Origin: a virus
Direction: 5' to 3' (one strand)
Length of the DNA stretch: 29,726 nucleotides
Virus record (IMG/VR): IMGVR_UViG_3300031785_000038
Location: 1-29,726 of that record
Of the stretch, positions 1 through 28,392 are shown in pieces. Numbering within the stretch: the first letter of the stretch is position 1; each line of letters starts with the position of its first letter. The notes beneath the pieces are model-generated. The model saw nothing but the letters and a program-made list of their open reading frames with translations. It was not told where the DNA came from and made no database searches. Both the position numbers and the translations under genes were made by a program.

Positions 1-3000
1 TATGAAATATTTTTAAATCACTATCATTACCTATAGATATTTTAGCACTATCAACAGCAGAACCTCCATCTGGTACTTGTATACCTGCAGCATTCATAAG
101 TGCGATTGTTGCAGCAGAATCAGTGCCCGGTGCTTGTCTTGCTTGTACGTATGCAGAGTCTACAAAAGTTTGAACTCTAGTGTTTGTATAATATAAGTTA
201 CTACCTTCAGTAAGATTACTTGTAGACTTTGTAGCTAATCGGTTATCAAATCTTGTATCTGTATAATATAAGTTTGTGCCTTCAGTTAAGTTTGTTGTTG
301 TAAAACCTGTGAAGTTACGTGTACTAATTTCAACTGCATGGCCCATGTAAGCATGAGATGAACATTGATAATGTAAAACTGGTGGAGTGGATTCTGTTAT
401 AGTTATTTCAGTATATGTTGCTGCAGTTGATACGCCTGTTGTAAATTGTGTAGTTCTTGCGGCATCATAATAAAATCTAAACGGATGACTCGACATATCG
501 CTCGAACTTAAATTAAAACGATATGTTCTTCCAAGTTTTAAGTTTACTATTGGTGATTCTGTACCATCAATATAATACGCATTTCCACTACCTTGACCTT
601 GATATACATGACTACCAGATTTTGCTGCAACTGTTACTGCAAAGGTTTTAGTAGTGGCGTCATGAGCATTTCTTTCAACTGCAGAGTTTGCAGAATCTTT
701 GGCAAAGAAATAATCACTATCGAAATTTTCTTTGGTATATACATCTTCAACATCAATGCTAAATTGTCCTGTTCCTGAATTATACGATAAGTCTCCAGCG
801 GCAGAAAACATTCCTCGTACATTTGCTGAATCAATGTTAAATTCACCTGATGTTACTGATAATCCTTTGTTTGCTGTAAAGTAACTTCTTATAAGTGGTC
901 TGTAAAAATTTGTAAGTTCAGATGAATCAATTTTTATATCACCTGAAGAGATTCCAATACCAGTTCCACCAGTAAAATGTGCACGTACTTCTGATGCACT
1001 CGGTCCAGTGTATGTCATTACACCTGTGCCAGAATCATAAGTAAATGAACCATCACCTCCAGCGTCTACAGCAAAAAGTGCAGCTTTTGCCGCACTATCG
1101 GCTCGAGCTACGGTATAATATAAGTTAGTCCCTTCAGCTAAATTACTTGTAGTTTTTGTGCCAAGTGCTGAGTCAAAGTCAGAATCAAATCCTAAGTACT
1201 CACCTTGAAAAGGTTTATTAAAAACAAACTTATCACCTGATGCTGAATATGTAAGTGTCGCTGATGCACCATTTATTGTTATGCCTGCACCGTCTGCGGC
1301 AGCTGCATCAGCCGCTGAATCTGCTAGTACTATATTCTTATCGTTTATACTTACGGTAGTTGAGTTTATTACAGTTTGTGTACCTTCAACCTGTAAGTTA
1401 CCAAGTATCTTAACTGTACCAGTATTATCACCTACAGTTGCAGGATCAATTATAAATTCTGCAGGGCCTCTTACCTGATTAAATGTAACGTTATCAGTGG
1501 TTGCAACAGGCTGTCCTATCGCTATGACACCAGTTGATGAATCATAAGTTACACCTGTTCCGGCGAGCAGTGATGCCTTTGCTGCACTGTCAGCTCTCGC
1601 GTCTGTATAATATAAATTTGTTGTGCCTTCTGGAACATCATCAGTATTAACTTGATTAGTACCTGTACCAAAGTCTATGTGAGTATCATCAATACCGTCT
1701 GCTTTTATACTTACGGCACCTGAAGTTACAGTAAAGTGTTCGGTATTAAATGATGCTATACCTTTGTTAGATGTGGTGGCATCTTCACCAGATATTTCAC
1801 CTGATGATATGTCGATACCTTCGCCAGCAGAAAAATGTGCTCTTACTTCTGAAGCTGATGGACCAGTATAAGTTAACTTGCCAAGTGCAGAATCATAGGC
1901 AAAAGATCCATCACCACCTGCATCAACTGCATTTATAAATCCTCTAATGTGTTGTCTAAAAAAGTTTGTAAGTTCTGACGAGTCAATCTTTATATCACCA
2001 GAATTAATTGCAATACCTGAACCACCAGTAAAGTGAGCTCTTACTTCACTTGCACTTGGACCCGTATATGTAAAAGTACCGGTAGTAGCATTGTATGCAA
2101 ATGATCCGTCACCACCTGCATCAGCTCCAGATATGTAACCTCTTATCGTTTGTCGATATAAGTTTGTTAATTCTGAAGAATCAAGACGTATATCGCCAGT
2201 TCCACTATTATACCCGATACCGTCACCACCGGTAAAGTGCGCGCGTACTTCGGCTGCGCTTGGTCCTGTATAAGTATATGCACCGGTTGATGAATCGTAT
2301 GAGAAAGAACCGTCACCACCAGCATCGACTGCCGCCATGTGTGCTCTTACTTCAGTAGCACTCGGTCCTCTGTATATAAATTTACCAGTCGCCGATTCAT
2401 AAGAAAAGGCTCCATCTCCACCTGAATCGACTGCAGAAAAATGAGCTCTTACTTCAGATGAGCTAGGTCCTGTATATGTGAAAACACCTGTTGAACTATT
2501 GTATGCAAAGCTACCATCGCCACCGGCATCAGTTGCTGAAAGATGAGCTCGTACTTCTGCAGGACTTGGACCTGTATAAGTTATAACACCAGTAGTAGCG
2601 TTATAACTAAAAGAACCATCACCTCCAGCGTCTGTTGCTGATATGTAACCTCTTATGTCTTGCCTAAAAAATGCTGATAATTCTGAAGAGTCAATATTAA
2701 GAGTATTTGTTGCATTACTATAATTTAAACCTACACCTTCAAGAACAGCACTATCAAGTGTTAAATTAAAATCACTGTCAAAATTTTCTTTAGTATAAAC
2801 TTGTTCTACATCAAACTCAAATATACCTGTGCTTGCATTGTATGATAAGTCACCGCCACTGGCAAACATGTTTCTAATTTGTTGTATAGAACCTTGTAAA
2901 TTAAAGTTTACTGGATCACCAGCGCTATCTGTAGCAGCAAACCCTCCACTTGAATCTTTTAAATCTATATTACCAAGATGTATCGTACCACCGCTTAAGT

Positions 3001-3361
3001 ATAAGTCTCTAAATTTTTTAGCACTATCACCTAAGTCAAAAGCACTATCTTGTGTAGGTACAATGTTTCCTTGTGTAGAAATACCTGTAACGACTGGAGT
3101 TGAACTTGAATCAATTTGAATTAAAAGTTTATCAGTACCTGGTGTGTAGAATTTTTCAATACCATTATCAGTTAAAAAATCAAAGTTCTTAAATGCATTT
3201 TCTGCAGAATCATATACAAGTATTTGACCATCTGATTTAGTGGCAACACTAAAATCGGTAAAATCGTCAATCGATATACCAGTTTGTGCGGTAGCTATCG
3301 GTGTACCAACTACAATCTTTTTTACAAAAGTGGTTTGACCTACGGTTACTTTAATTGCCAT
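1..3361 (-). CDS. Giant repeat-rich tail fiber / virion structural protein (3' end outside window)
   Basis: This frame is open from an ATG at 3361 to the left edge, giving 1120 codons without a stop; the C-terminus is missing. The start has a good ribosome site (AGAGGAATAG before ATG) and follows the upstream gene by 8 bases. The protein is built of repeats typical of phage fibers: seven copies of a block ending in TYTGPSxSEVRAHF, four of DSSELTNFFRQxIRGYI, and four of NLxEGTNLYYT. Around residues 925-1010 lies a cupredoxin-like module. The last visible residues, DSDLKIFH, match the start of a motif common in marine phage fibers. The role is inferred: an adhesin or long fiber on the baseplate rim, possibly followed by a C-terminal chaperone domain outside the window. 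Family type is fairly certain; receptor and exact position in the virion are unknown. Confidence 0.85.
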   Translation of the reverse strand, partial: MAIKVTVGQTTFVKKIVVGTPIATAQTGISIDDFTDFSVATKSDGQILVYDSAENAFKNFDFLTDNGIEKFYTPGTDKLLIQIDSSSTPVVTGISTQGNIVPTQDSAFDLGDSAKKFRDLYLSGGTIHLGNIDLKDSSGGFAATDSAGDPVNFNLQGSIQQIRNMFASGGDLSYNASTGIFEFDVEQVYTKENFDSDFNLTLDSAVLEGVGLNYSNATNTLNIDSSELSAFFRQDIRGYISATDAGGDGSFSYNATTGVITYTGPSPAEVRAHLSATDAGGDGSFAYNSSTGVFTYTGPSSSEVRAHFSAVDSGGDGAFSYESATGKFIYRGPSATEVRAHMAAVDAGGDGSFSYDSSTGAYTYTGPSAAEVRAHFTGGDGIGYNSGTGDIRLDSSELTNLYRQTIRGYISGADAGGDGSFAYNATTGTFTYTGPSASEVRAHFTGGSGIAINSGDIKIDSSELTNFFRQHIRGFINAVDAGGDGSFAYDSALGKLTYTGPSASEVRAHFSAGEGIDISSGEISGEDATTSNKGIASFNTEHFTVTSGAVSIKADGIDDTHIDFGTGTNQVNTDDVPEGTTNLYYTDARADSAAKASLLAGTGVTYDSSTGVIAIGQPVATTDNVTFNQVRGPAEFIIDPATVGDNTGTVKILGNLQVEGTQTVINSTTVSINDKNIVLADSAADAAAADGAGITINGASATLTYSASGDKFVFNKPFQGEYLGFDSDFDSALGTKTTSNLAEGTNLYYTVARADSAAKAALFAVDAGGDGSFTYDSGTGVMTYTGPSASEVRAHFTGGTGIGISSGDIKIDSSELTNFYRPLIRSYFTANKGLSVTSGEFNIDSANVRGMFSAAGDLSYNSGTGQFSIDVEDVYTKENFDSDYFFAKDSANSAVERNAHDATTKTFAVTVAAKSGSHVYQGQGSGNAYYIDGTESPIVNLKLGRTYRFNLSSSDMSSHPFRFYYDAARTTQFTTGVSTAATYTEITITESTPPVLHYQCSSHAYMGHAVEISTRNFTGFTTTNLTEGTNLYYTDTRFDNRLATKSTSNLTEGSNLYYTNTRVQTFVDSAYVQARQAPGTDSAATIALMNAAGIQVPDGGSAVDSAKISIGNDSDLKIFH
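332..590 (-). other. Cupredoxin-like domain inside the giant fiber
   Basis: Codons 925-1010 of the fiber read as a beta-rich module with GRTYRFNLSSSDMSSHPFRF followed about 40 residues later by HYQCSSHAYMGH. Candidate type-1 copper ligands are His959, Cys1000, His1003 and Met1006. The order (His, about 40 residues, Cys-x2-His-x2-Met) resembles plastocyanin and amicyanin. The motif is seen directly; copper binding is inference. It could instead be a fold relic used only as a binding surface. Confidence 0.6.
905..2700 (-). repeat. Dispersed DSSELTNFFRQxIRGYI fiber repeat, four copies
   Basis: A second repeat type occurs near 2650-2700, 2145-2195, 1935-1995 and 890-945. In protein the copies read DSSELSAFFRQDIRGYI, DSSELTNLYRQTIRGYI, DSSELTNFFRQHIRGFI and DSSELTNFYRPLIRSYF. 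They alternate with the 34-residue repeat, which gives the fiber a composite two-repeat architecture. Confidence 0.75.
2235..2640 (-). repeat. Four tandem copies of a ~34-residue (102 bp) fiber repeat
   Basis: Four consecutive copies of a unit with consensus SATDAGGDGSFxYxSxTG followed by xxTYTGPSxSEVRAHF lie head to tail within the fiber gene. Their EVRAH ends fall near 2542, 2438, 2338 and 2236. Three more copies are dispersed at about 2032-2121, 1833-1921 and 976-1063. Copies differ at many third codon positions, so they are old protein repeats rather than a recent expansion. Confidence 0.85.
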
Positions 3362-3369
3362 CTATTCCT

Positions 3370-3717
3370 CTAAGTAACTTGTGGAGTTACTTGTATACGA
3401 CCTTCAAGTATTCTCTCAACGATAGTGTTTCCAGAACTATCGTTAAAAGATAATTCGATATCATAAACATGTCTACCAGTTCGTAAAGCAGCAGTTTGTG
3501 CATTAGTTAATGATAAAGTGGTTATTCCTGCTGCAGCATTTGTGTTTACTACAGTAAATGCAGTTGCTTCACCGGCGCTGTCTGCATAATTTTTTTTAAT
3601 TTTTGCTGTTACTGTGTGACCAGATAGATTTTTTGCTGCACCGTTTTTATCGACTAAATGTAGTTCTATAGAGGTATCAGCACCTTGATCAAAGGTGAAT
3701 TCTTGAAATTGGGCCAT
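3370..3717 (-). CDS. Small virion structural protein, BppU-like/Ig-like beta domain
   Basis: A 115-residue protein starting MAQFQEFTFDQGADTSIELH. The pattern of a polar strand, LVDKNGAAKNLSGHTVTAKI and a closing beta-rich half resembles the N-terminal domain of BppU-type baseplate upper proteins and related Ig-like folds that hold fibers. No signal peptide or membrane segment is seen. It is the first gene after a late promoter (TATAAATA at 3778-3771) with a predicted leader of about 48 bases. It sits directly upstream of the giant fiber, so a role as fiber adaptor or fiber base is a reasonable inference. The domain match is by pattern only; it could be any small beta-sandwich structural protein. 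Confidence 0.7.
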   Translation of the reverse strand: MAQFQEFTFDQGADTSIELHLVDKNGAAKNLSGHTVTAKIKKNYADSAGEATAFTVVNTNAAAGITTLSLTNAQTAALRTGRHVYDIELSFNDSSGNTIVERILEGRIQVTPQVT

Positions 3718-3770
3718 GAAATACTCCAGTTGATTTCTTTGTCGGACGTTAACGCCCCTGCCATTTAATC

Positions 3771-3778
3771 TATTTATA
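3771..3778 (-). promoter_or_regulatory. T4-type late promoter (TATAAATA) for the fiber operon
   Basis: The minus strand reads TATAAATAG at 3778-3770, an exact match to the T4 late promoter box recognised by a gp55-type sigma factor. With the box at -13 to -6, transcription would begin near 3765, about 48 bases before the ATG at 3717. It is paired back to back with a second box on the plus strand at 3791-3798. Confidence 0.75.
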
Positions 3779-3790
3779 CAAAAACGTGTT

Positions 3791-3798
3791 TATAAATA
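3791..3798 (+). promoter_or_regulatory. T4-type late promoter (TATAAATA) for the glycosyltransferase genes
   Basis: An exact TATAAATA lies on the plus strand, followed by five bases (TATTC) and then ATG at 3804. With the standard T4 spacing (box at -13 to -6) the A of the ATG is +1, so the mRNA would be leaderless. No Shine-Dalgarno sequence is present upstream. Confidence 0.7.
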
Positions 3799-3803
3799 TA
3801 TTC

Positions 3804-4691
3804 ATGAATAATATTATATTTAGTTTGTATATTGATATTCCTGAAAGTGAATTAGATTATCAGCCTCCACATTATGGCAGTAAGATATCTAAAACACTTC
3901 ACACTAAACAGCAACTTAAAAAATATTACAATTGGTTAAAAGACATGCAAGTTAAGTATGCTAAAACGATTGGTGTTGAGTATAAACTTTTTGAGTATGA
4001 TGATGAATATAAAAGTTACCATAAATGGTTTAAAGAAACTTATCCACAAATAACTTCATATAACATAGTAAACTTTTATAAATTAAAAAAATTACATGAT
4101 TTAGTTGAAATACATGACAATGTTTTATATCTAGACTTTGATGTAGTGCCTATATCAAAAATTAATTTTTTTAATAATAATGATTTATCACAAGGCATTT
4201 ATATTCTTACTGGTACAGCTGAATCGCAAAAGCCAGTTGTTACTGATGATGGAATAGTTAAAGATGCAAAAAGAAGTCATAGTATAAGATCACCAACAGC
4301 AAAGTATTGGAATGCACGTGCACTTTGTTTAAATGAAGATATATTTGGTGACTATACAGTCTACAATACCGGTATAATTGGTGTTAATAAATTTTTCTTA
4401 GATAAATTAAATTATTTTAAAAATTTTGATATCATGATTCAAAAAATGGATAATTTAATAAAAAATAATGATATGTTTCCAGAATACATTAGAAACTTGT
4501 TTGCTTATGATAACGAAACTATTTGGGCATACAAGACTTTAAAACATAAGGTTGAAACAATAAAGCTAAATTCTGACTGGCATCATTTTATGGACAAGTG
4601 GAATTATATACCACACACTGTAAACTTTGTACATGCAATCAATAAAAACTTTGAGTACGTTAAAAATTATTATGAGAAGAATCGTATATAG
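3804..4691 (+). CDS. GT-A-like glycosyltransferase (first of three)
   Basis: From the ATG at 3804 the product has 295 residues. A GTG at 3786 is in frame but lies before the promoter box, so ATG 3804 is preferred. The segment NVLYLDFDVVP carries a DxD-type motif (Asp111-Phe-Asp113) that in GT-A enzymes binds the metal and nucleotide-sugar. YNTGIIGVNK (Asn188-Thr-Gly) is the sort of loop found in GT8/GT32-like enzymes, and a late acidic segment (DNETIWAYKT) may be catalytic. No signal peptide or membrane helix is seen, so it is probably cytoplasmic. It overlaps the next gene by 20 bases. Base composition is much more AT-rich than the flanking structural genes. Donor sugar and acceptor cannot be told. 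Expression from a late promoter points to virion proteins rather than DNA as acceptor (inference). Confidence 0.75.
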   Translation: MNNIIFSLYIDIPESELDYQPPHYGSKISKTLHTKQQLKKYYNWLKDMQVKYAKTIGVEYKLFEYDDEYKSYHKWFKETYPQITSYNIVNFYKLKKLHDLVEIHDNVLYLDFDVVPISKINFFNNNDLSQGIYILTGTAESQKPVVTDDGIVKDAKRSHSIRSPTAKYWNARALCLNEDIFGDYTVYNTGIIGVNKFFLDKLNYFKNFDIMIQKMDNLIKNNDMFPEYIRNLFAYDNETIWAYKTLKHKVETIKLNSDWHHFMDKWNYIPHTVNFVHAINKNFEYVKNYYEKNRI

Positions 4692-5439
4692 TATATTTAC
4701 AAATAAGATAGATGAACACCCATCTGCTGATAATTTTAAAAAAAATCAATTTGTAAAATATAAACACAAAATAATAGAAGCACAAAGTAGGTATGCTAAG
4801 ATTTGCAATGCAAGTTATAAGCTTTTTGAAACCACTAATACAAACTATAATGAAATACAATTTGAAAAGTTATACCTTTTTGATGAACTTGCAAATGATT
4901 ATGATGAAGTACTATATTTAGATTTTGATGTAATTCCTGTAAAAAATTCTATTATATTTAATAAATTTAATTTAAATAATATGTGTGCTTGCTCTATAAA
5001 CAAACATGAAGAGTTTATTCATAAATTAAATGAAGTTAAAAATTTAACTGAAATGCATATGTTCATAAAAACAACTTCAAAAAAAGCTATGCTATCAATC
5101 CATGATATAAACGGTAGTGATGATTTAATAAATACGGGTGTGTTATTAGCTAATAAAAAAGTAATAAAATCTATTGATTTGAAAAATACTTTAAAAGAAG
5201 CAAGTTTGACATTTAATAAATCGAAAGATGATAATATTTATTATGAAGACATAACAAAACTTTGGATAGAAAATAATGAAGCATTTTTTTCATACATAAT
5301 AGAAAAATATAATATTCCTTATACAAATATTGGCATATTATGGAACTTTATTTTAAATCATAAAATTAAAAATGTAAATCCAAGCGCTTATTTTTTACAT
5401 GTTATAAGTAAAGAGTTTGAAAAATGCTTAGAGTTATAG
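4672..5439 (+). CDS. GT-A-like glycosyltransferase (second of three)
   Basis: The likely start is ATG 4672 (MRRIVYSIFTNKIDEH, 255 residues). An in-frame TTG at 4627 would extend deep into the previous gene and is less likely. The product is a divergent relative of its upstream neighbour: it has DEVLYLDFDVIP (DxD at about residues 84-86) and INTGVLLANKK, matching the NTG loop. The N-terminal segment with AQSRYAKICNASYKLFE corresponds to MQVKYAKTIGVEYKLFEYD of the first enzyme, which suggests gene duplication followed by divergence. It overlaps the preceding gene by 20 bases and the following one by 16, so the three are translationally linked. No strong Shine-Dalgarno sequence is seen. GC content in a counted 60-base line was about 23%. 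The acceptor is unknown. Confidence 0.7.
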   Translation: MRRIVYSIFTNKIDEHPSADNFKKNQFVKYKHKIIEAQSRYAKICNASYKLFETTNTNYNEIQFEKLYLFDELANDYDEVLYLDFDVIPVKNSIIFNKFNLNNMCACSINKHEEFIHKLNEVKNLTEMHMFIKTTSKKAMLSIHDINGSDDLINTGVLLANKKVIKSIDLKNTLKEASLTFNKSKDDNIYYEDITKLWIENNEAFFSYIIEKYNIPYTNIGILWNFILNHKIKNVNPSAYFLHVISKEFEKCLEL

Positions 5440-5993
5440 CTGTTAACACAGGTACAAAATATTCTCAATGGTATGTTAATAATTTAAAACATATGATTGA
5501 TACTTATTCTAATTTAAATTATAATAAATTTGAAGTTATTACTAAAGATGAATATGATGGTGTGTTTAACAAATTACAAATGTTCGATATGTTTAGAGAT
5601 GGACAAAACATTTACTTTGATTTAGACGTTTGTATTTTAAAAGATTGTAATTTATTATTAAAAAGTGAATTTACACTATGCCATGCATGGTGGAGAGAGC
5701 ATGAACACACGCCGTTAAATTCTTCTATAATATCTTGGAAAGGTGATCAATCTAAAATATTTAATTTTTTTAATAATGATCCGGAATATTACATGTTAAA
5801 ATATTCAAGAGGTATCGATCAATTTATTTATGAAAATATAATATATGAAACATATAACTATTCATATGAAGTCAATTCAATTAAATATTTAAATGAAAAC
5901 AAATTTAATAATTATAACGTAGTGTTATTTAATCAAAGCTATCATCTTATGCATCGACAGGGGTGGTGGTCTTCTTACTTTCTTCCGCTATAG
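5424..5993 (+). CDS. Small GT-A-like glycosyltransferase (third of three)
   Basis: A 189-residue protein with GQNIYFDLDVCI (DxD at Asp66-Leu-Asp68), preceded by KLQMFDMFRD as in sugar transferases where an aspartate-rich strand binds the donor. SIISWKGD and SRGIDQFIYENI resemble conserved downstream segments of small capsule/LPS-type transferases. The final LMHRQGWWS may supply the terminal metal-binding His seen in GT-A folds. The start is ATG 5424, 16 bases inside the previous gene, with a weak AAAGAG upstream. Its last 47 bases overlap, in the convergent direction, the end of the minus-strand gene at 5947-6468. It is shorter than most full-length glycosyltransferases and could be a minimal domain. 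Confidence 0.65.
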   Translation: MLRVIAVNTGTKYSQWYVNNLKHMIDTYSNLNYNKFEVITKDEYDGVFNKLQMFDMFRDGQNIYFDLDVCILKDCNLLLKSEFTLCHAWWREHEHTPLNSSIISWKGDQSKIFNFFNNDPEYYMLKYSRGIDQFIYENIIYETYNYSYEVNSIKYLNENKFNNYNVVLFNQSYHLMHRQGWWSSYFLPL

Positions 5994-6468
5994 CAACAGC
6001 AGCTTTAATCGCTTCTAATAAATTTTTCGATTTTCTTAACTTGCTTTTTAAGTTTCTGCTTTTTGATTTTTTAATAGAATCAAGTTCAAATAGTTCTAAC
6101 TTAAATAAAAATAATCTTTCTTTATCTTCTTCTTCATTAAAATCTGCAAATATAGCATGCGCAATCATTTTATATAAATTACTTGACCCTTCACTTAAAT
6201 CATAAATCAACCCTCGTTCTTTACCAATTTTTACCACATCATTTTCAAATGCTTCGTTTTGTGCTCGTATCTGTTTATAAGTTGATTCATGTAAAGTATC
6301 GATATCCATGTGAGTAAGTAAGTTTTCCCAACTTGGATCACCTTCTTTTGCTTCAATATATTCAACTCTTGTTTCTTTACCATCAGGAGTTGTCCAATAA
6401 GCTTCAACTATTGTCCTGTCATTATTAGAAAAATGTGCTGTTAAAAAATCATGTCCCGGAATAGCCAT
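5947..6468 (-). CDS. Conserved marine T4-like phage structural protein, unknown role
   Basis: A 173-residue protein beginning MAIPGHDFLTAHFSNNDRTI, followed by EAYWTTPDGKETRVEYIEA and DPSWENLLTHMDIDTLHEST. I recognise this opening as a family that recurs in the structural region of T4-like cyanophages and pelagiphages, but I know of no assigned function. The C-terminal third is basic and helical (KKSKSRNLKSKLRKSKN) and may be a coiled segment. The ribosome site AAGGAGTT lies within the end of the upstream gene, whose stop is 2 bases away, so it is co-translated in the operon. It is the last gene of the long minus-strand chain and ends inside the opposing glycosyltransferase gene. Confidence 0.75.
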   Translation of the reverse strand: MAIPGHDFLTAHFSNNDRTIVEAYWTTPDGKETRVEYIEAKEGDPSWENLLTHMDIDTLHESTYKQIRAQNEAFENDVVKIGKERGLIYDLSEGSSNLYKMIAHAIFADFNEEEDKERLFLFKLELFELDSIKKSKSRNLKSKLRKSKNLLEAIKAAVAIAEESKKTTTPVDA

Positions 6469-6470
6469 CG

Positions 6471-7391
6471 TTAACTCCTTGCTATCTTTAAAAAAAATGT
6501 ATTTTGTGTTTGTGCAGTACCATTAGGAAACTCTTGAGCTCTATAATCATTTGCATTTACAAATCTTTGTTGATAATTACCACCACCATCAAGTCTCGTA
6601 TCAACCATACCACTACCTCGATTATTTCCACTACCATTGATGCTATATGTCAATCTAGAACCACTTGTATTTACAGTGTGATGCCTCATTTCTGCAAGCA
6701 ACATTGCGTCAAACGCTGCAGCTGTGTAAGTTTGTAAGTCATTGTCAGAATTGATTTGAAAAGGAACTGTTATTGATGGTGCTGTTCCTTGATTAGTTCT
6801 CATTAAATAATAATTTTGAATAGTAGTTGGTTGATCTAAAGTTTCGTTGATACCACCTGCTGTATAAGCTCCAGTGTTAGCTCTTGTATCGATAAAAACC
6901 GGTGTTGAAGATATAAGTGTGTGGTCTGATAGTGAAGTGGCTGTATGTATTCTAAACGTACCGTCTCTATCAGTGCCGTCAACAATTGAAGTCAATGCGC
7001 CGTCTATAAACGTATCAAACATATCTGTTGAGTTCATTGCTTGTATATTTGAGCCATCATAATACACCGGATATAATTTATTGTTAGTGTCTGTTGGAGC
7101 ACTTAGTGACGCATTAACTTGGCTTATTCTATCAAATACTACTGTTACTGTAGTCGGTTCTGCAGTTTCTCCTTCAGTTGGAAACCTGTCTGCTCTAGTT
7201 GCCGCGGCACCAGCCTGCAACCTAGTATCTGACATTGAATCTAAAGTTCCACCATTTGAAACTTGTGATAACGTTACACTTGGATTACTGCCATAAACAT
7301 ATATACATCTATTTTGTATAGCAGTTATCATTGATGAAGACATCTCTCTTAGATCGTTTCCATCATTATATAATGGCCTTCTTGCTGCCAT
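6471..7391 (-). CDS. Virion structural protein of the marine T4-like type
   Basis: A 306-residue protein starting MAARRPLYNDGNDLREMSSS. The features SVTLSQVSNGGTLDSMSDTR, LQAGAAATRADRFPTEGETA and LYPVYYDGSNIQAMNSTDMF are hallmarks of a structural protein repeatedly found near the baseplate genes of T4-like marine phages. It is rich in Thr, Ser, Asn and Gly and has no charged clusters or membrane segments, consistent with a beta-structured virion surface protein. It starts 2 bases after the preceding stop. The exact place in the virion is not known to me; a baseplate-periphery or neck-fiber role is inference. Confidence 0.75.
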   Translation of the reverse strand: MAARRPLYNDGNDLREMSSSMITAIQNRCIYVYGSNPSVTLSQVSNGGTLDSMSDTRLQAGAAATRADRFPTEGETAEPTTVTVVFDRISQVNASLSAPTDTNNKLYPVYYDGSNIQAMNSTDMFDTFIDGALTSIVDGTDRDGTFRIHTATSLSDHTLISSTPVFIDTRANTGAYTAGGINETLDQPTTIQNYYLMRTNQGTAPSITVPFQINSDNDLQTYTAAAFDAMLLAEMRHHTVNTSGSRLTYSINGSGNNRGSGMVDTRLDGGGNYQQRFVNANDYRAQEFPNGTAQTQNTFFLKIARS

Positions 7392-7393
7392 GG

Positions 7394-7828
7394 CTAACTA
7401 CCCGGTGAACGTATTGTTTTTAAAGTGCTACCTGATGAATCTTTAATTAAAAGTGACACTGGACTACTAAATTTAGTGCTAGTTAACGTATTTATTGGTA
7501 CAAAAAATCTACCTTGACTTGAATCAAATCCAATACCATTAGCACTATCTTTTTGAAAGTTTGACATAATACTTGTTTCTCCAGAGTCTGCTTTGATTAA
7601 AGCTAAAACTTCTGATGAGTCCATAGAATTTGCACTAATTAAAGATAATATAGTTGATGAATCAGTATTATTAGCTTTTACATTTATTGCGTTTATAGCT
7701 TGTACAATATCAGAATCAGCGCCTGTTGTGTTTAGTTGCGTTATATCACCAATGTGACTAGATATAGTATTTGTTTTAGTAACGAGTGTACTAATTGGAT
7801 CTGTTAAATTAATTATTGTTTTAGCCAT
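7394..7828 (-). CDS. Small fiber-like structural protein
   Basis: A 144-residue protein beginning MAKTIINLTDPISTLVTKTN. The N-terminal half (heptad-like NTISSHIGDITQLNT and DIVQAINAINVKA) looks like a trimeric coiled-coil shaft. The second half, with IGFDSSQGRFFVPINT, is beta-rich. It is unusually rich in Asp-Ser pairs (six or more). Its start overlaps the stop of the upstream gene by 8 bases, indicating translational coupling. A TATAAATA box inside the upstream gene (7962-7955) could give it a separate late transcript. Likely a short fiber or spike component; no named homologue recognised. Confidence 0.65.
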   Translation of the reverse strand: MAKTIINLTDPISTLVTKTNTISSHIGDITQLNTTGADSDIVQAINAINVKANNTDSSTILSLISANSMDSSEVLALIKADSGETSIMSNFQKDSANGIGFDSSQGRFFVPINTLTSTKFSSPVSLLIKDSSGSTLKTIRSPGS

Positions 7829-8030
7829 CTAACTTCTCTATTACTTTAGTTAACATACTTTTAATTTCACTAACTTCATTTTTTAAATTATTTAATTCTT
7901 GTTCTTTTTTTATTCTTTCAGCTTTTCTTTTTTTAGCTTGTTCTATTTCACTTCTATTTATATTGATAACAACATTTGTGTCTTTGTCTCTAACTAGATT
8001 TTCATGACCTTTTACTTTTAAATAGTTCAT
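7821..8030 (-). CDS. Short coiled-coil virion-associated protein
   Basis: A 69-residue protein, MNYLKVKGHENLVRDKDTNV then a lysine/glutamate-rich helix (IEQAKKRKAERIKKEQE) ending in a leucine-zipper-like LNNLKNEVSEIKSMLTKVI. The MNYLKVKGHxNLVRD opening is conserved in similarly placed short genes of T4-like marine phages. It overlaps its upstream neighbour by one base (TAATG) and its downstream neighbour by 8. Conservation of position between a large structural protein and fiber-like genes suggests a virion linker or assembly role (inference). Too short for a firm assignment. Confidence 0.7.
   Translation of the reverse strand: MNYLKVKGHENLVRDKDTNVVININRSEIEQAKKRKAERIKKEQELNNLKNEVSEIKSMLTKVIEKLDG
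7955..7962 (-). promoter_or_regulatory. Possible internal late promoter (TATAAATA)
   Basis: The minus strand reads ATATAAATAGAAG inside the codons for NININRSE of the 69-residue gene. It is an exact box followed by G, as at the other minus-strand promoters, and is about 127 bases upstream of the 144-residue gene. Being inside an AT-rich coding stretch, it may be a chance match. Confidence 0.3.
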
Positions 8031-9607
8031 TAGACGCTCAATGCTATTATTCTTAAATCAGTGATTCTTGGAACAAATGCGCTGTTTGTACTTCTAAATA
8101 CTATCTTAACTTGAAACTTTGTAAAAGCAGGTAACACACCGTTTTGACCACCAATTAAATATCTGTACTCTCTAAAAATACTTAGATTTTCATCAGTAGG
8201 TAAAGTAGTCTCTGGTTCTTGTAAAGTAAAAGACTTTTCAGTTATAACTTCATCAGCAGTACCTGTTCTAAAGTAAAGCTGAAAATCTGTACCGGTTGGT
8301 CTGTTTGCTGACAGTAAAACTTTAAGACCAACGGCATCTGTATCTAGAGTTACAATTCTTGTTAAGTGTTTTGCAGCTGAGCTACCTCCTGTAGCAGAAG
8401 TTTCATTTATAAAATTTATTGGTATGTTAAATCCAGTAGAGACAGCTGGATCTTGTTTATCTATTAAGTTATCGATAAGTGTAATAGAACTTCTTTGTAA
8501 GTCAATCATTGGCGAAACATTTGAATCATTAGTTGAAAGTAGCATTCTCATATCAAATGATTTAACACCAGAACCTAACTCTGCGGTTTCAGCACTATCG
8601 AATGCAATTAAATAAGGTTCTTTTGCTGCATTATTTTGATTTAATTTTATACCGTTAAAGCTAGTTGATTTTTGAAAAGATGTTTCACTTCCAGCATATG
8701 ACTTACCAGTTGTAGTTTTTATACCGGCACCTAAGCTTGTTCCTCGAGGAACTATCGTAGCACTGTTTGGATATATTAAACTGAAAGGTATATTTTTTGT
8801 AGCAAGTACATTTGCACCACCGCCAATCGCATCAGAATCGGCAGCTGAATCTGCTTCGAATGTATATCCGGTAAAATCTACTTTTGTTATTAATCTTCTG
8901 CCGTTTATAGATGCTGCACTTATTCCACCAACACCAGTTGAATCCACTCCACTTACTTGAATCGCATTACCTACCTGTAAGCCAGAGTTTATATGTGCCA
9001 TGGTTACAGTAGCATCACCCGAAGTTACTTTTACTGGATTTGAGATAAGTTTCTTTTGAGGTACAGAAGCATTATGTAAAATTGCTGTGGCACTAGTTTG
9101 TTTAAACTTTGCTTGATGTATTACAAAAGACAAGTCTTCATTCATAGATGGTAACCACGTAACACCGTTTTGTGAGTAAAAAAGATTACCTAGATCTGGT
9201 TGTTTTGCGGCTCTTCTTTCTGATGAACCAACTTGAAACTTGTCAATTTCAGCAACATAAATCTCATAATCTTTTGAGTCTGCAATAACTACAAGTGCAT
9301 AATCTTCTGAACCTTTTAAAAAAACTGGTTCATCAAACTTAAATTCTGTTGCTGTTAAAGCTGGACCTACAGTGTCAACATTTACATCACTTCCTGCTTT
9401 ACTTTTTATAGTTCCTGGAATTATTTTACTTGAAGAAGGAAATCCATTTACCATTGGTCTTAATTGAATTTGTACTGGTAAAGATGCATCTTTTGCCGCA
9501 AAGAATAAATCTACCTGTGTGCAGTATATTCCGTTTGGTTCATTAATAAAAAAGGATTGTGCTATTGGTTGTCTATTTACCTGATATCCTAGTGAAGTTA
9601 CTGCCAT
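8030..9607 (-). CDS. Large baseplate/tail structural protein with QPIAQSFFI opening
   Basis: A 525-residue protein. The N-terminal segment RQPIAQSFFINEPNGIYC, VDLFFAAKDASLPVQIQLRP and EPVFLKGSEDYALVVIADS is a beta-sandwich module. In other T4-like and SPO1-like phages it follows a DUF4815 region, often in one polypeptide. Here it stands alone, two bases after the DUF4815-type gene. NLFYSQNGVTWLPSMNEDLSF continues the same module. The C-terminal part (about residues 330-525) is a second beta domain, ending in a strand with FVPRITDLRIIALSV. The next gene starts in the stop codon (TAATG). Likely part of the outer baseplate or fiber attachment layer. Confidence 0.75.
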   Translation of the reverse strand: MAVTSLGYQVNRQPIAQSFFINEPNGIYCTQVDLFFAAKDASLPVQIQLRPMVNGFPSSSKIIPGTIKSKAGSDVNVDTVGPALTATEFKFDEPVFLKGSEDYALVVIADSKDYEIYVAEIDKFQVGSSERRAAKQPDLGNLFYSQNGVTWLPSMNEDLSFVIHQAKFKQTSATAILHNASVPQKKLISNPVKVTSGDATVTMAHINSGLQVGNAIQVSGVDSTGVGGISAASINGRRLITKVDFTGYTFEADSAADSDAIGGGANVLATKNIPFSLIYPNSATIVPRGTSLGAGIKTTTGKSYAGSETSFQKSTSFNGIKLNQNNAAKEPYLIAFDSAETAELGSGVKSFDMRMLLSTNDSNVSPMIDLQRSSITLIDNLIDKQDPAVSTGFNIPINFINETSATGGSSAAKHLTRIVTLDTDAVGLKVLLSANRPTGTDFQLYFRTGTADEVITEKSFTLQEPETTLPTDENLSIFREYRYLIGGQNGVLPAFTKFQVKIVFRSTNSAFVPRITDLRIIALSV

Positions 9608-9608
9608 T

Positions 9609-12600
9609 TTAGTTACCTTTTTTCATTGTTAATAATCGCCCTACTATCCTACCTATCGGCCTTAAAATAAATTTAGAGCTTACATCAAACAAACCTTGCG
9701 AAATGCTAAGCTTGTTTTTATTTCTTTTTGCTTTATAATAGTTTGTTAAAAATACTCCAGTATATTTATTACCAAGAATTTTAGCAATCTTAGGTCCATA
9801 CCAATCATAAGCTTTCATAACGTATGGATCCATTTTTCTTAATTTTACGCCATATCTTTTTAGTGAATTAAAGTGATCTTTTGTTATAAATCCATTATTA
9901 AATGTTGCCGTACATATGTATGTGCCATTACTATTATCATTACCGTTTGTACCTGATCCATTATCTGAGTTGCCGCTATTAGATTGACCGTTGTCATTAC
10001 CTCTCTGGCCGCCTCCACCACCTAGATAACTTGTATCTTCATAAACATTGTCAAAATCTCTACTATCAATAGTACTCGACCATGTACCAGGTCCAGTTTG
10101 GTTTGGAGCACCTGGAGTGATGTTAATTCCTTCACGATCTGGATCATCATCACCTGAGCTATGATTTTGGTACGTTGCATTGTCTCTTAACCTTACACCT
10201 TGTACACCTAACACTCTTGTTGATTCATACGTTCTATCAACTGTATCTAAGTAGCCAGACATTGAATAAACTGCTTTTCCTATAGATGTAGCAAAACTTT
10301 CTTTATCAGTGCTTATATCTAAAAGTTTAAACTGTCTTTCTCCTGTTCTAATTTTTATTGCATCATTAAATGGTACAATGAATGATCCAGCAACTGAGCC
10401 AGTTGCATCTGTTATTAACTCTGCATTACCGCTAGGGTGCGTGGTAGCATTTATTAAAGTATTTCCAAAATCTGAATCATAATCAGAATAAAACTGAAAG
10501 TTTTCTTTGTGAGTTAGTGCAGTTATATTATTTCCATCTAAGAATGCAAACATCTTTGTTGTTGGCCTTAAACCTTCTGCCTTAAAGAAAACTTTTCTTG
10601 GTCTTGCAAAAGGAAGTAATGCAGATTGAATAACTCTATCTTCAATAACTTCAAGAATTGTTTCGTCAGTTACTACTTTATTTACTACACCACTTACCTG
10701 TCCAGTTGTGCTACCTACTTTTAAATTTTCTAAAGGTATTCCACCCCAATTCCATGACCAGTTATTCCAGTTGTATGCTAGTTTAGTATCTAAACGTATG
10801 CCACCTGGTACAGTTTTTTCTGTTCTAATTTCTACAGCTCTCCACTCATCTGATGCGGGTGATAAAGTTAGTACTCCTTCGTAAATAACGACAGAAAAAG
10901 GGTTGATTTTTATTGATTTTGTCGCTAGATCTTGATTGATATACGGCGCTTCATCATAATCTATATAAATGTTATCACCTCTTCTTACTGTACCTAATGG
11001 TAAAGAAGTATCTGAGTCAAATATTAATCTAATGTTATCTTCAGTAAACGCTGGTCTTACGACATTTTCGATAGGATCAAGTGCAGCTCTATAATTTAAA
11101 GTACTTGTATCAGAAAACAATGCAGTGTTAAAATTATCTACAAAAAAACCAGACTTAGTTCTGTCATTACCTGCGGAATCAAGAACTTGAAAGTTTTTTG
11201 TATCGAGTTCAAGTGAATTTAAAGATGCAAATTCTTCTAACTTATCAACTCTTCTTTCGAGTTGAGCGATATCTTTCATGGTAAATCTTTTATGATCTAT
11301 CTTTTTTACAATAACATCTGAGTCATTTAAAGTATTTGCGTTTAATTTAAAATCATAAAGTGCTAATGTTCCACTAGGCTTTATAGGAGTTGATGGATTA
11401 AATCCTGAAGTACCAATTTCAACTCTTATAATTCCGTCTTTATCTATTACTAGTTTACCAGCTTTAGGAACAAAATATGCTATATCTGCAGTTACAAGTT
11501 GTGTAGGTTGAGGTAGTTCAATATGTCTGCCACCGGTACTTTGATCAGTAAATTCACCTGCAGAATCCATAGTTGATCTAAAATCTAAAAAGTCATATAA
11601 TCTTATTCTTCTACCATTTGAAAATCTAAACTTTGGTATTTGATCATAAGTAACCTGACCGGTATATGAATTTACTGCAAAGAAGTCTCCAGAAACACTG
11701 TGTTCAAAATGTCTATATTTCACAAAAACACCAGGTGTCGAAGCTGGAGCCGACTGTCCAGGTCTTAATAATAATCTTCCTAAGTCATAATGATTATCTC
11801 TTTGACCATCGTCTAATGTAAACCTGTTAGCAAAACTTACATTACTATCATCACCTTTTAAAATTTCTTGTACGTCAAATATATCAGCTCTTTGTAGCGG
11901 TACAAACTTTTGACCATTGCCATCTGAATCTATTCCTATAGTTATTGATCTTGTAGTTAAAACTTTATTTTTTATAGTTGCTTGACTTTTATTTACATAT
12001 GCAAGGATCTCTAACGGCGTACTTGCCGGTAAATTAGATATGGTTACTGAAGTTCCAGCTGGAGGAATTGAAAAACTTGCACCAACAAAGATGTCACTGT
12101 CTGTGCCAACTATCCAATCATCTGCATTTGTAAATTTTTCACCCGGTGCAGACAGTGAAAGTGAAGCCTGTCCTGATGGGTTTGAAGTAATTGGAAATCT
12201 TCGTTGAGCTGCATATGATATATCTGTAACTGATTGTGGTCTTTCTCTAGGTAATTGAAAAAGTGACCTGTTTTTTTCTGTTTCTTTAAGAACAGCCTTA
12301 CCATTTTCAAGAGTAGGTCTAAAATAACTTGAAGTACTTGTTCCTATACTTTTAACATTTCGAAACGCATTACCGCTATTTAATTTAACATCAAAAAGAT
12401 GAAATCTTAAATTATTTCCATCTTCATTTATTGCTTTTACTCTGGCCGTACCTATTGTACTACCTAGATAATCAACGCTATCTCTTAAATCTAATTTTTC
12501 AAAAGTATTTATGTCTGGCAAGCCAAATGTCGCTGAATCGCCAAACGTACTATTATCAACAAGAACATAATTACCAAAGTCTGTGCTTGTAGCATCATTT

Positions 12601-13667
12601 TCTATAGTAATAGTATCAGTTGCTTTTTGTAATCTTAAAGTAGTAGGAAAGTCACGTGACGCTCTAAACCCTTCTACTACTGCGGTTCCAGCACTAATTT
12701 CTAAATTAAGATGTGTGTCAGCAGAATCAAGGTTAAATTTCATTTTAAAAGGTTTGACTATATAATCACCAGAATTTTCAAATATTCTTTTTGCTACAAC
12801 CTTATTTGGTATGTTATATGAGTCATTATGACTTACAGCACTATATACAACGCCTTCTTTTACAGTTGCAACGTGTACAAAATTTTCATCAGAGTTAATT
12901 TCACTTTCTTCGGCGATAGTAAGATTAATTTTATATCTATCAGCTCCAGGCGCAGTTAAGTTAGGTGTCGCACCCTGATTATCAAATAATGTTGTATCAT
13001 CCACTGCTGTAACTACAGATTCTATAACTTTAAAACCTACATTTGTATTTACAGAATCACTATACTTTGATATTATTTTTGATTGATCTTGAGTGAATAC
13101 AAAGTGACCTCTTGCATAATAAATACCTGATAAAAGAGTTATAAGAATACCTACACCTACCGCTGGATTAGAATCCGTGTTTGTAGTTTGTACTGTCAAA
13201 ACCTCAGAGCCACCTGTTATATTTTCACCAGGTGTCACTCTTACTGCTGTGGTTCCTGAAAGTCCAGTTGGTGCACTTAAATATTGAACATATAGAGTTG
13301 CAGGATCTGAACCAGTAGCTGCTACTACTTGTAAAACTTTAAAACTGACAGCAGATGTACTACCACTAAAAGTAATACCAATTAATGTAGAAGTATCTGT
13401 AGGTAAAGCATTAGTTGTAGTATCTAACTTAATAAATTCATACTTTTGATTTATACTTGCACCACCAGGTTTGACAACTGCACCTTCTTTAAATACATTA
13501 TTACCAAACCTTGTTATTTGATTTTGTAAAATAGTTTGAAGTTGTGTTAGTTCTCTAGCTTGAACAGCTCTACCTGAGTTAAAAAGTATTTTATGAAAAT
13601 TTGCACTATCTGCAAAATCATCTTTAAAACTTGTGTTAAATGTAGTATTTGTAAGTGTTGTCGCCAT
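9609..13667 (-). CDS. Very large DUF4815-type baseplate/tail protein
   Basis: A 1352-residue protein. The N-terminus (SFKDDFADSANFHKILFNSG, then RAVQARELTQLQTILQNQIT) is the DUF4815 signature of phage baseplate or tail-rim proteins. Residues about 95-165 contain a GENITGG beta module. A middle section (FARPRKVFFKAEGLRPTTKM, then FAFLDGNNITAL) is typical of the same protein class. Residues 1215-1249 are a Gly/Asn/Ser/Asp linker, leading to a distinct C-terminal domain (YICTATFNNGFITKDHFNSL) with a basic end. The ribosome site AAGGA precedes ATG 13667, 9 bases after gp8. Function is structural. In T4, gp7 and gp10-12 occupy the comparable gene interval, but I do not equate it with any one of them. 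Confidence 0.85.
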   Translation of the reverse strand: MATTLTNTTFNTSFKDDFADSANFHKILFNSGRAVQARELTQLQTILQNQITRFGNNVFKEGAVVKPGGASINQKYEFIKLDTTTNALPTDTSTLIGITFSGSTSAVSFKVLQVVAATGSDPATLYVQYLSAPTGLSGTTAVRVTPGENITGGSEVLTVQTTNTDSNPAVGVGILITLLSGIYYARGHFVFTQDQSKIISKYSDSVNTNVGFKVIESVVTAVDDTTLFDNQGATPNLTAPGADRYKINLTIAEESEINSDENFVHVATVKEGVVYSAVSHNDSYNIPNKVVAKRIFENSGDYIVKPFKMKFNLDSADTHLNLEISAGTAVVEGFRASRDFPTTLRLQKATDTITIENDATSTDFGNYVLVDNSTFGDSATFGLPDINTFEKLDLRDSVDYLGSTIGTARVKAINEDGNNLRFHLFDVKLNSGNAFRNVKSIGTSTSSYFRPTLENGKAVLKETEKNRSLFQLPRERPQSVTDISYAAQRRFPITSNPSGQASLSLSAPGEKFTNADDWIVGTDSDIFVGASFSIPPAGTSVTISNLPASTPLEILAYVNKSQATIKNKVLTTRSITIGIDSDGNGQKFVPLQRADIFDVQEILKGDDSNVSFANRFTLDDGQRDNHYDLGRLLLRPGQSAPASTPGVFVKYRHFEHSVSGDFFAVNSYTGQVTYDQIPKFRFSNGRRIRLYDFLDFRSTMDSAGEFTDQSTGGRHIELPQPTQLVTADIAYFVPKAGKLVIDKDGIIRVEIGTSGFNPSTPIKPSGTLALYDFKLNANTLNDSDVIVKKIDHKRFTMKDIAQLERRVDKLEEFASLNSLELDTKNFQVLDSAGNDRTKSGFFVDNFNTALFSDTSTLNYRAALDPIENVVRPAFTEDNIRLIFDSDTSLPLGTVRRGDNIYIDYDEAPYINQDLATKSIKINPFSVVIYEGVLTLSPASDEWRAVEIRTEKTVPGGIRLDTKLAYNWNNWSWNWGGIPLENLKVGSTTGQVSGVVNKVVTDETILEVIEDRVIQSALLPFARPRKVFFKAEGLRPTTKMFAFLDGNNITALTHKENFQFYSDYDSDFGNTLINATTHPSGNAELITDATGSVAGSFIVPFNDAIKIRTGERQFKLLDISTDKESFATSIGKAVYSMSGYLDTVDRTYESTRVLGVQGVRLRDNATYQNHSSGDDDPDREGINITPGAPNQTGPGTWSSTIDSRDFDNVYEDTSYLGGGGGQRGNDNGQSNSGNSDNGSGTNGNDNSNGTYICTATFNNGFITKDHFNSLKRYGVKLRKMDPYVMKAYDWYGPKIAKILGNKYTGVFLTNYYKAKRNKNKLSISQGLFDVSSKFILRPIGRIVGRLLTMKKGN

Positions 13668-13676
13668 TTTTAATCC

Positions 13677-15074
13677 TTAAAGTGTAATTACAACCTTTAT
13701 ATCTTCTGTTTGATTAGCTGCTCTTGTTACTGGTGCTCTATTTTCTATATATACAATCTCTCCAGAAAGTTTTTCAACGTCATCTCTAGTAAATGCATCG
13801 CTATCAGCATCTACGCCAGCTGCAACTAGAGTGCCAGATTGACCACCACCAGTTATAGCTTCACCTTCTTGAAAAGGTTTAAAACCAGTTTCTTCAGATT
13901 GATGAAAGTATAGCTTGTCATTTTCTACTTCATCAACAAAAGCTTTTGCACCACTAGTTCCCCCAGTTATTGTTGCATCTAAAAATCCGGCATTAGCTGC
14001 GGCTTGTAATTTTAGAAATTTTAAAACTTTACCACTTGATGTAGTAAAAGGTGGACCATCGGCTGCACTATCTGATGAATGCAAAGGATTTCTTATAAGA
14101 GTAACTTGTCTAAAATCTTGTCCTACAATAAAATTACTATCTTCTATTCCATTTGGTTTTGTGTTAAACATTAATGAGGTTGCTTTTAATTCGTCACGAA
14201 CATCAGCACCTAATCCAGCATCAGGACCAATTATAGCACGTGCAGTTGCTTGTATGCCGCCTGCACTGTCAGGTGCGCTAATCGAAACACTTGCAAAATT
14301 AAATCCTTGTCCCATAGCCATTGTGCTATCTGTGCTTGAATCCATTTCAATCTTGGTTATATTACCTCCAGAAATAGATCCAGTTGCACTTGCTCTTACA
14401 CCATCACCATCAATCGTTATAGTTGGCGTACTTGTATAACCTGTACCTGCATTTGTTACTTTTATTCCAAGTATTTGACCATGCACGGCAGCATTTTGTA
14501 CTTGATCTTGTAAAATTTCAAATCCTGCTAAAGGCCTACCAAGTTCTGATGAATCAAGTATTTTTTCGACTGGCACGAAGTTTGATGATAAAAACTTACT
14601 TGATCTAGTAGCACTTAAAGAAAATAAATATTTCCAAACATAACCATCAGCAGTTTTTATCGGTTTAGTACCTGTACCTGTAGGTTTTACAGTTGAAGCG
14701 TTTACAACTCCTGCAGCTGTCTTACTCTGCTGTAAACAAATATAAACTTGATTGTCTTCTGTTAGTACATAGTAACTATTTGTAGCTGGTATGCTAGCAA
14801 AATCATCATCATAAGCATTATAAAAAGCTCCAGATGACCAGTTATATCGTGGTATAACATAACTTACGTCACTTGCTGATTTGATTGACTGTAATCCTGC
14901 TCTTACATTTCTTATAGTACGTGGTGTATCTGTTGGCGTAGTCACAGTTTCTGCACTATCATATGGTTCTGATTTTCCGATTCCAATATAATATCTTGCA
15001 GAGTCAAGTCTTGATTCATCAAAAATTGTTTGCGTTAATTGTTTTTTAAATGTATCTGTAATTATTGCTGGCAT
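13677..15074 (-). CDS. 8: Baseplate wedge subunit, gp8-like
   Basis: A 465-residue protein. The opening MPAIITDTFKKQLTQTIFDE, the YYIGIGKSEPYDS and IPRYNWSSGAFYNAYDDDF segments, YVWKYLFSL and the ending YIENRAPVTRAANQTEDIKV are characteristic of gp8 of T4-like marine phages. T4 gp8 has 334 residues, so about 130 extra residues are present. A glycine-rich insert with VTNAGTGYTSTPTITIDGDG (about residue 205) and a module with ATITGGTSGAKA and GEAITGGGQSG (about 365-422) account for much of this. gp8 dimers join gp6, gp7 and gp10 in the wedge. Ribosome site AAGGAAT; the gene follows the gp10-like gene by 10 bases. Identity fairly sure, including position in the wedge cluster. Confidence 0.85.
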   Translation of the reverse strand: MPAIITDTFKKQLTQTIFDESRLDSARYYIGIGKSEPYDSAETVTTPTDTPRTIRNVRAGLQSIKSASDVSYVIPRYNWSSGAFYNAYDDDFASIPATNSYYVLTEDNQVYICLQQSKTAAGVVNASTVKPTGTGTKPIKTADGYVWKYLFSLSATRSSKFLSSNFVPVEKILDSSELGRPLAGFEILQDQVQNAAVHGQILGIKVTNAGTGYTSTPTITIDGDGVRASATGSISGGNITKIEMDSSTDSTMAMGQGFNFASVSISAPDSAGGIQATARAIIGPDAGLGADVRDELKATSLMFNTKPNGIEDSNFIVGQDFRQVTLIRNPLHSSDSAADGPPFTTSSGKVLKFLKLQAAANAGFLDATITGGTSGAKAFVDEVENDKLYFHQSEETGFKPFQEGEAITGGGQSGTLVAAGVDADSDAFTRDDVEKLSGEIVYIENRAPVTRAANQTEDIKVVITL

Positions 15075-16053: not shown

Positions 16054-17037
16054 CTAGAAAGATGAATCACTTAAATATCTTGTGAACATATCATTATCCA
16101 TTGTTTCAGTTGCTAATGAGAAGTCTGGTGTTGCTGTTCCAGCACTATCTCTAATATTACTATCATCAAAAGTAAATGAGTTCACTCCAATCAACTCATC
16201 GATGCTTGAATAAAACTTTTCTAATTCTACTGTAGTTAAATTTTGATATACATTAACTAATTGATTTAATCCTATTCTAACATCTGTGCCATTCGAATCT
16301 ATTAATAATGTTTCTTGTACAAATGGAATAGTTAAAGGAACTGAAGCTTCCGAAATTAATGACGGACCGGATAACACTGCTGAATCACTAAAAATTATTG
16401 AGTGATTAGAAGAATCACCAATTAAACTTAGTGTAGCTTCAGTATCTGATACAACCTGTCCTTCAAAATAAAAACCTGCAGGGTGTATGAACTTTTTATA
16501 TAATTCGTTCCACTTACTTACATCAATAGGTGTTTTTAACTGTAAACCAAATGTTTGAAACAACGCATTGTTTTGTATAAATTTTAAAGATTCAGTTCCT
16601 ATCGTACTTGCTGAATCACCAATATTAAATACAGATTCTTTGCCATAAACTACTTCTGCTTTGTTTTGAAAAAATAATCTAAAAAATTCTTCGGCAGAAA
16701 ATCTTGAACCTTTCAATCTTAAAAATTGTGCGAGTCTTCGAAGTGCGAATCTTGTGTCAGTAAAGTTACCACCAGTTTCTAAGTTTGCTGCTAACTCAAC
16801 AACGTAATTATTAAGTAACTCATTAGGCATTTCGCCTATATCTTTTGTTGCAAATATTTGTTTTAAATCGTCGCCGAACGAATGATTAGCATCAGCAGAA
16901 TCTAAGAAGTCATAATATTTTTCTAAGAACGTTACTAAAGTTGGAAACTCGCTCGTAAAATATTCAGGTAATGTTTCACGTACCTTCCTTACCTGAAAGT
17001 TTTTTAACCTTCTTTTACTTTGAAAGTCTATTGCCAT
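16054..17037 (-). CDS. 7: gp7-like baseplate wedge protein, short form
   Basis: A 327-residue protein lying directly downstream of gp6, as gene 7 does in T4. Its first 190 residues match in outline the C-terminal part of T4 gp7: an opening helix before YFTSEFPTLVTFLEKYYDFL, then ALRRLAQFLRLKGSRFSAEE FFRLFF and KFIHPAGFYFEG. T4 gp7 carries the corresponding FYSTKGIEASYKFLFKVLY and RFVHPVGFGFIAI. T4 gp7 is 1032 residues, so the large N-terminal beta domains are absent. gp7 clamps the gp6 dimer and anchors gp10. It begins in the gp6 stop (TAATG). Homology is by motif comparison from memory; a firm call needs a profile search. Confidence 0.65.
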   Translation of the reverse strand: MAIDFQSKRRLKNFQVRKVRETLPEYFTSEFPTLVTFLEKYYDFLDSADANHSFGDDLKQIFATKDIGEMPNELLNNYVVELAANLETGGNFTDTRFALRRLAQFLRLKGSRFSAEEFFRLFFQNKAEVVYGKESVFNIGDSASTIGTESLKFIQNNALFQTFGLQLKTPIDVSKWNELYKKFIHPAGFYFEGQVVSDTEATLSLIGDSSNHSIIFSDSAVLSGPSLISEASVPLTIPFVQETLLIDSNGTDVRIGLNQLVNVYQNLTTVELEKFYSSIDELIGVNSFTFDDSNIRDSAGTATPDFSLATETMDNDMFTRYLSDSSF

Positions 17038-19309: not shown

Positions 19310-19324
19310 ATTTTTCCTTTTTAC

Positions 19325-19332
19325 TATTTATA
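19325..19332 (-). promoter_or_regulatory. T4-type late promoter before gp25
   Basis: The minus strand reads TGTATAAATAGT in the 40-base gap between the needle gene and gp25. The predicted start at 19319 leaves a 10-base leader, AAGGAAAAAT, before ATG 19309, so the ribosome site would sit at the very 5' end of the mRNA. Confidence 0.78.
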
Positions 19333-19342
19333 CAAGTTCTAA

Positions 19343-19364
19343 CAATTCTTTATAAAGAGAATTG
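19343..19364 (-). terminator. Possible stem-loop at the end of the needle gene
   Basis: A 9-bp inverted repeat (CAATTCTTT paired with AGAGAATTG, one G-T pair) with a 4-base loop spans the stop codon of the needle gene, just before the late promoter for gp25. It lacks a clear U tract on the minus strand, so it may be a weak terminator, an mRNA 3' stabiliser, or nothing. Confidence 0.35.
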
Positions 19365-28387: not shown

Positions 28388-28392
28388 GAAAC

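Follow-up and report, generated by a model that had tools for sequence, protein, structure and literature searches.

Three overlapping genes, GT1, GT2 and GT3, very probably encode real glycosyltransferases (GTs) in a 29,726-nt stretch of DNA (the window; IMG/VR record IMGVR_UViG_3300031785_000038) from a marine T4-like, pelagimyophage-like virus. Among relatives, GTs at this site accompany two minus-strand families, represented here by the genes at 5947–6468 (w5947) and 6471–7391 (w6471). We suggest, at just short of an even chance, that the trio performs late glycosylation of a virion adhesin, the most likely acceptor being the fiber-like protein 6471–7391 with w5947 as its partner.

The trio is on the plus strand with head-to-tail overlaps, opposed to the minus-strand virion operon, and is located between the fiber-assembly gene (3370–3717) and w5947. 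The minus-strand order is baseplate genes (PHROG matches to tail-tube cap, wedge, and hub/lysozyme), VrlC, fiber-like genes, and then the large fiber. A preliminary description had reported three overlapping genes with DFD, DFD, and DLD motifs running against the surrounding operon, and all of these ORFs and motifs are present. The start of GT1 was taken as the ATG at 3804, as the GTG at 3786 given by the ORF tool falls within the promoter region, and the start of GT2 as the ATG at 4672. The features are as follows.

2–3361, minus strand: large tail fiber, 1120 aa or more, incomplete at the window edge; Ser + Thr 22%, Asp 8%
3370–3717, minus strand: fiber-assembly protein, PHROG 'L-shaped tail fiber protein assembly' (E 3.5e-15); borders the cassette on the left
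3771–3778, minus strand: divergent TATAAATA, facing the fiber genes; kept in most relatives
3791–3798, plus strand: late promoter motif of the T4 type, exact TATAAATA, 5 nt upstream of the GT1 ATG; putative function
3804–4691, plus strand: GT1, 295 aa; predicted GT-A fold, GT8-like; DFD at 4134–4142
4672–5439, plus strand: GT2, 255 aa; divergent GT1 paralog; DFD at 4921–4929; overlaps GT1 by 20 nt
5424–5993, plus strand: GT3, 189 aa; predicted GT-A fold, separate family; DLD at 5619–5627; overlaps GT2 by 16 nt
5947–6468, minus strand: w5947, 173 aa, unnamed family; convergent with GT3, 47-nt overlap; candidate adaptor or chaperone
6471–7391, minus strand: w6471, 306-aa fiber-like protein; Ser + Thr 22%; candidate sugar acceptor
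8030–13667, minus strand: VrlC, as two ORFs

The two VrlC ORFs in the window encode 1352 and 525 aa, and in phage Mosig VrlC is a single 6.1-kb gene. Matches to the gp5-like hub/lysozyme are also split in the window (19350–24489), over 23641–24489 and 19350–21404, and the 747-aa ORF between these two has no PHROG match.

Predicted folds and sequence motifs of the three proteins

Searches of Pfam and PHROGs gave no significant match for GT1, GT2, GT3, or w5947. A profile search of solved-structure sequences left the GT1, GT3, and M92 families unmatched, M92 being a fourth cassette protein, and gave insignificant matches only for the 5947 and 6471 families and for A7, another GT family. The window's own GT1 does not match Pfam GT8 (PF01501), but 19 of the 40 members of the GT1 family do, with a best E of 5.5e-9. 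The AlphaFold2 model of GT1 has a pLDDT of 92 and a GT-A fold. Its nearest structure is domain 1 of chlorovirus A064R (Z 14.3, 3.4 Å over 188 residues), and the model gives Z values of 11–14 to A064R domain 1, LARGE1, UGGT, LgtC, and glycogenin. A GT-A fold is also predicted for GT3, with pLDDT 84, the five models ranging widely (48–84); its nearest structure is glycogenin (Z 14.8), and A064R is the top match in Foldseek.

The DxD motif is invariant in the alignments of metagenomic relatives. GT1 contains D111-F-D113 and N188-T-G190, and the NTG is fully or almost fully conserved across the alignments. The C-terminal motif of GT8 is HxxGxxKP. At the C terminus of GT1, H277 and K281 are invariant, but the Gly and Pro of the motif are absent in that form, so we describe GT1 and GT2 as GT8-like and do not file them as GT8. 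Taken together, the predicted folds of GT1 and GT3, the GT8 matches of relatives, and the invariant DxD indicate that the trio are very probably real glycosyltransferases. The preliminary description had proposed this and named structure prediction as the check, which for GT1 and GT3 came out in its favor.

GT1 and GT2 had also been described as divergent duplicates, with which their 26% identity (E 5e-15) agrees. The GT1 of the window is 42–56% identical to GT1 relatives and 24–30% identical to GT2 relatives, and the GT1 and GT2 proteins of different phages fall into separate groups; by sequence comparison, GT2 is an old paralog of GT1. The GT3 family is related by profile to M92 (hhalign 98.4%). 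Between the window and a near-identical contig, L011, there are only seven differences in GT3 (dN 0.009, dS 0.031), a pattern compatible with selection on the gene.

Domain 1 of PBCV-1 A064R (PDB 2p6w, 2p72, 2p73) has its GT-A fold in common with GT1 and GT3, although identity is about 15% and the match in fold does not imply an equal donor or acceptor. A064R builds a virion glycan (PMC9614988). The α- and β-glucosyltransferases of T4 are likewise GTs of a T4-like phage, but they have a GT-B fold and act on DNA. Could the trio glycosylate modified bases of phage DNA as these enzymes do? We consider this most improbable, since the predicted GT-A fold of GT1 and GT3 differs from the GT-B fold of the T4 enzymes and of RB69 ORF003c (PMC6024577), a result that upholds the earlier distinction from agt and bgt. 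A PF00303 protein is present in relatives G001, G002, G004, and G008, and that of G002 resembles T4 dCMP hydroxymethylase, as this alternative would have it. However, in G002 a separate T4-type AGT (E 4e-25) lies next to the hydroxymethylase and far from the cassette, and Mosig, rated 75.7% complete, carries GT1 and GT3 without any match to PF00303 or AGT. The T4-like dCMP hydroxymethylase-type gene and adjacent T4-type AGT are found at 11176–11775 and 12866–13888 of G002 (the genome of L073) and also in L120, which suggests that the DNA of some pelagimyophage relatives is glucosylated.

Late promoter motifs and base composition

The preliminary description had the trio start at an exact late promoter, and an exact TATAAATA is indeed found at 3791–3798, 5 nt upstream of the ATG. 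Among the relatives compared, L026 alone shares the exact forward motif of the window, and L005 has it with one mismatch at equal spacing. The opposite-strand motif at 3771–3778, conserved in nearly all relatives examined, would drive the fiber operon. The count of exact TATAAATA in the AT-rich window is not above chance (8 sites against 5.9 expected, and at least 8 in 47 of 200 shuffles), so it is the position of the forward motif that speaks for a promoter. T4-like phages express their virion operon late, and GTs inside the operon, or behind a late motif, would be made with the adhesins. Late expression of the trio is likely from its sequence context.

At 12 distinct sites, exactly 5 nt separate TATAAATA from a following ATG, and no site has a gap of 0–4 nt. 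The sites with the 5-nt gap are in the window (3791–3804 and 28380–28393) and in L001, L006, L015, L026, L030, L062, L072, L079, and L088. The T4 spacing would put the transcript start at these sites on the A of the ATG, and thus some late mRNAs may be leaderless.

The GC content of the trio is 22–26%, compared with 29–38% in the other genes of the window, so that the low-GC island seen earlier is real. It is not a sign of insertion, as had been thought. The third-position GC of the trio, 0.15–0.20, equals that of the structural genes (0.10–0.23 elsewhere in the window), and the proteins are rich in Asn and Lys and poor in Gly, Ser, and Thr. Since third-position GC is unchanged, the drop stems from amino acid content rather than from foreign DNA, and low GC as a mark of recent insertion is ruled out.

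Linkage to the 5947 and 6471 families

A cassette-blind sample was obtained by using the C-terminal part of VrlC to pick loci, removing near-duplicates, and scoring the downstream genes. In the loci with enough sequence, a GT was present in 27 of 27 where the 5947 family is present, and in 0 of 13 where it is absent (p 8e-11, shared ancestry ignored). These counts include the A7 family, added post hoc after its position was seen; without A7, the comparison is 20/27 against 0/13 (p 1.3e-5, shared ancestry ignored). A GT also occurs in all 17 loci with a 6471-type protein and in 7 of the 20 without one, again with shared ancestry ignored. The fiber-assembly gene on the left side, by contrast, occurs both with and without GTs.

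These results bear on the giant fiber (2–3361), which the preliminary description had suggested as a sugar acceptor. It adjoins the trio on the left, across the divergent pair of late motifs, and has a Ser + Thr content of 22%. This content is within the ordinary range of virion proteins in the window (12–30%), and it is the right-hand neighbors, not the fiber-assembly gene beside the giant fiber, that track the GTs. Thus, the linkage points to a 6471-type acceptor, and the giant fiber is an improbable one. Of the earlier proposal that late GTs glycosylate virion proteins, the late timing stands as likely, and the adjacent giant fiber as special partner is dropped.

A7 was called a GT from a DxD-like motif and weak Pfam matches only, and comparison with GT1 detected no relation. 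In the lineages with A7, the 5947 homolog is preceded by a gene for a fiber-like protein distantly homologous to 6471 (hhalign 97.2%, E 3e-11), so the fiber-like protein and 5947 appear to stay while the GT is exchanged. The nearest GT is on the same strand, no more than 50 nt after 5947 and inside the virion operon, in 16 of the 27 loci; this placement is support for late expression that does not depend on the promoter motif. In loci chosen by GT1 or GT3 relatives, the nearest GT is on the strand opposite to 5947 in 94 of 94 counts, duplicates included; the two samples were chosen differently, and the same-strand cases are mostly other GT families. From its position and distant homology, 6471 is a putative virion protein. 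A relationship of 5947 to the short tail-assembly chaperone of Melnitz was considered and found no support on comparison.

Genes 82–97 of Mosig EXVC030M (MT647606; genome announcement, PMC7892664) include homologs of GT1 (41%), GT3 (47%), 5947, and 6471 (51%), in the order of the window. Mosig differs in that its cassette has about 10 extra plus-strand genes, M92 replaces GT2, and an epimerase gene separates the 5947 homolog from that of 6471. Its GT1 and GT3 homologs were deposited as hypothetical proteins.

We propose that the trio is the minimal form of a glycosylation cassette that varies among marine T4-like (pelagimyophage-type) viruses. Three soluble GT-A enzymes would be made late, alongside the virion proteins, and would add sugars in succession to one of them, more likely the fiber-like 6471–7391 than the giant fiber. 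The 5947–6468 protein would be a dedicated partner, either adaptor or chaperone. The sugar-decorated adhesin might then change host binding or protect the particle. The genes, motifs, predicted folds, variability of the site, and linkage come from sequence and computation, and the late expression, acceptor, donor sugars, order of action, and benefit are inferred. There is no membrane segment in GT1–3 (maximum 19-residue hydropathy 0.78–0.85), which fits a cytoplasmic protein acceptor. Virion glycosylation in mycobacteriophages (Freeman et al. 2023, as cited in PMC12619734) is a precedent for glycans on tailed-phage virions, with other hosts and, as far as that citation goes, other acceptors (capsid and tail tube).

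Might the enzymes instead alter the LPS or O-chain of the host and so block the adsorption of other phages (superinfection exclusion)? GT8 enzymes often build LPS, and soluble GT8 enzymes can work on the LPS core in the cytoplasm. The larger cassettes contain sugar-building genes, and the trio island appears to sit in the host recognition cluster. In Zaragoza-Solas et al. 2020 (PMC7029224), GT8, mainly an LPS family, is the commonest GT family of pelagimyophages, and their GT cassettes are read as O-chain modification. Against this stand the strict linkage to 5947 and a fiber-like gene within the virion operon, the likely late timing, and the lack of a flippase, polymerase, or membrane GT among the cassettes examined. 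No clear membrane segment was seen in the cassette proteins tested, and GT1–3 have none of the kind expected of gtrABC-type (serotype-converting) membrane proteins. We regard host LPS modification as the less likely reading, though it is the most serious alternative to glycosylation of an adhesin.

Variability of the cassette and its biological meaning

The host recognition cluster of pelagimyophages, which lies between VrlC and gp14, has cassettes of GT8 and radical SAM genes downstream of VrlC, among tail-fiber genes (PMC7029224). The window shares with it the phage type, the position downstream of VrlC, and the GT8-like GTs; the VrlC side and the fiber genes are present, and the window stops before the gp14 side. 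The distance from the fiber-assembly gene to 5947 is 2.2 kb in the window and 1.8–17 kb in relatives. Larger cassettes contain radical-SAM, carbamoyltransferase, aminotransferase, methyltransferase, and nitroreductase-like genes. Radical SAM genes occur at the equivalent site in relatives and not in the window, which, with L081, has GTs only. No such cassette is present in HTVC008M, Melnitz, or the fairly close relative L127. The site is therefore filled in some related genomes and empty in others, the comparison that the preliminary description had asked for. Its term 'moron-like' calls for caution, as the unit gained and lost also takes in the minus-strand partners.

The radical SAM, nitroreductase-like, and carbamoyltransferase genes of the larger cassettes, and an oxygenase cassette among the fiber genes of HTVC008M, would also suit action on a small molecule, tRNA, or another host target, with the virion operon a tolerated insertion site. 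We give this little credence, because it leaves unexplained both the linkage to 5947 and 6471 and the GT-only versions in the window and L081. Annotated oxygenase genes (2OG-Fe(II) oxygenases, phytanoyl-CoA dioxygenases, Asp/Arg hydroxylases) adjoin fiber genes at 16403–19682 of HTVC008M (L107) and 2702–8955 of Mosig (L110), and these enzymes might hydroxylate virion proteins.

A scan of GTDB matched nine contigs with cellular labels, none of which gave a clear host homolog of the trio. Relatives of w6471 and w5947 lie beside GTs in L111, L112, L113, and L115, which are phage-DNA-like and look like mis-binned phage DNA. L114 has Mosig-type cassette genes only, L117 and L119 each have a w6471 relative, and L116 and L118 have cassette genes only. 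L111–L115 are short contigs filed as Flavobacteriaceae, Gammaproteobacteria, Pelagibacter, and Rhodobiaceae genomes.

GT islands at this site were already known. What we add is the linkage to partner genes and the case for a virion acceptor; neither the 5947/6471 linkage nor the minimal three-GT form is in the accessible part of PMC7029224. More tentatively than the glycosylation of an adhesin itself, we propose a module gained and lost as a unit, consisting of a 6471-family acceptor, a small obligate 5947 adaptor, and interchangeable, mutually unrelated GTs, with optional sugar-building genes. The hosts of pelagimyophages, SAR11, rank among the most abundant bacteria, and GT islands are widespread in these phages. 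With the linkage to 5947 and 6471, what was a loosely defined 'host recognition island' becomes a specific module that has a named candidate acceptor, and Mosig, a phage isolated on a cultured host, is available for testing it. If the module reading is true, every phage lineage would have its own sugar-coated adhesin.
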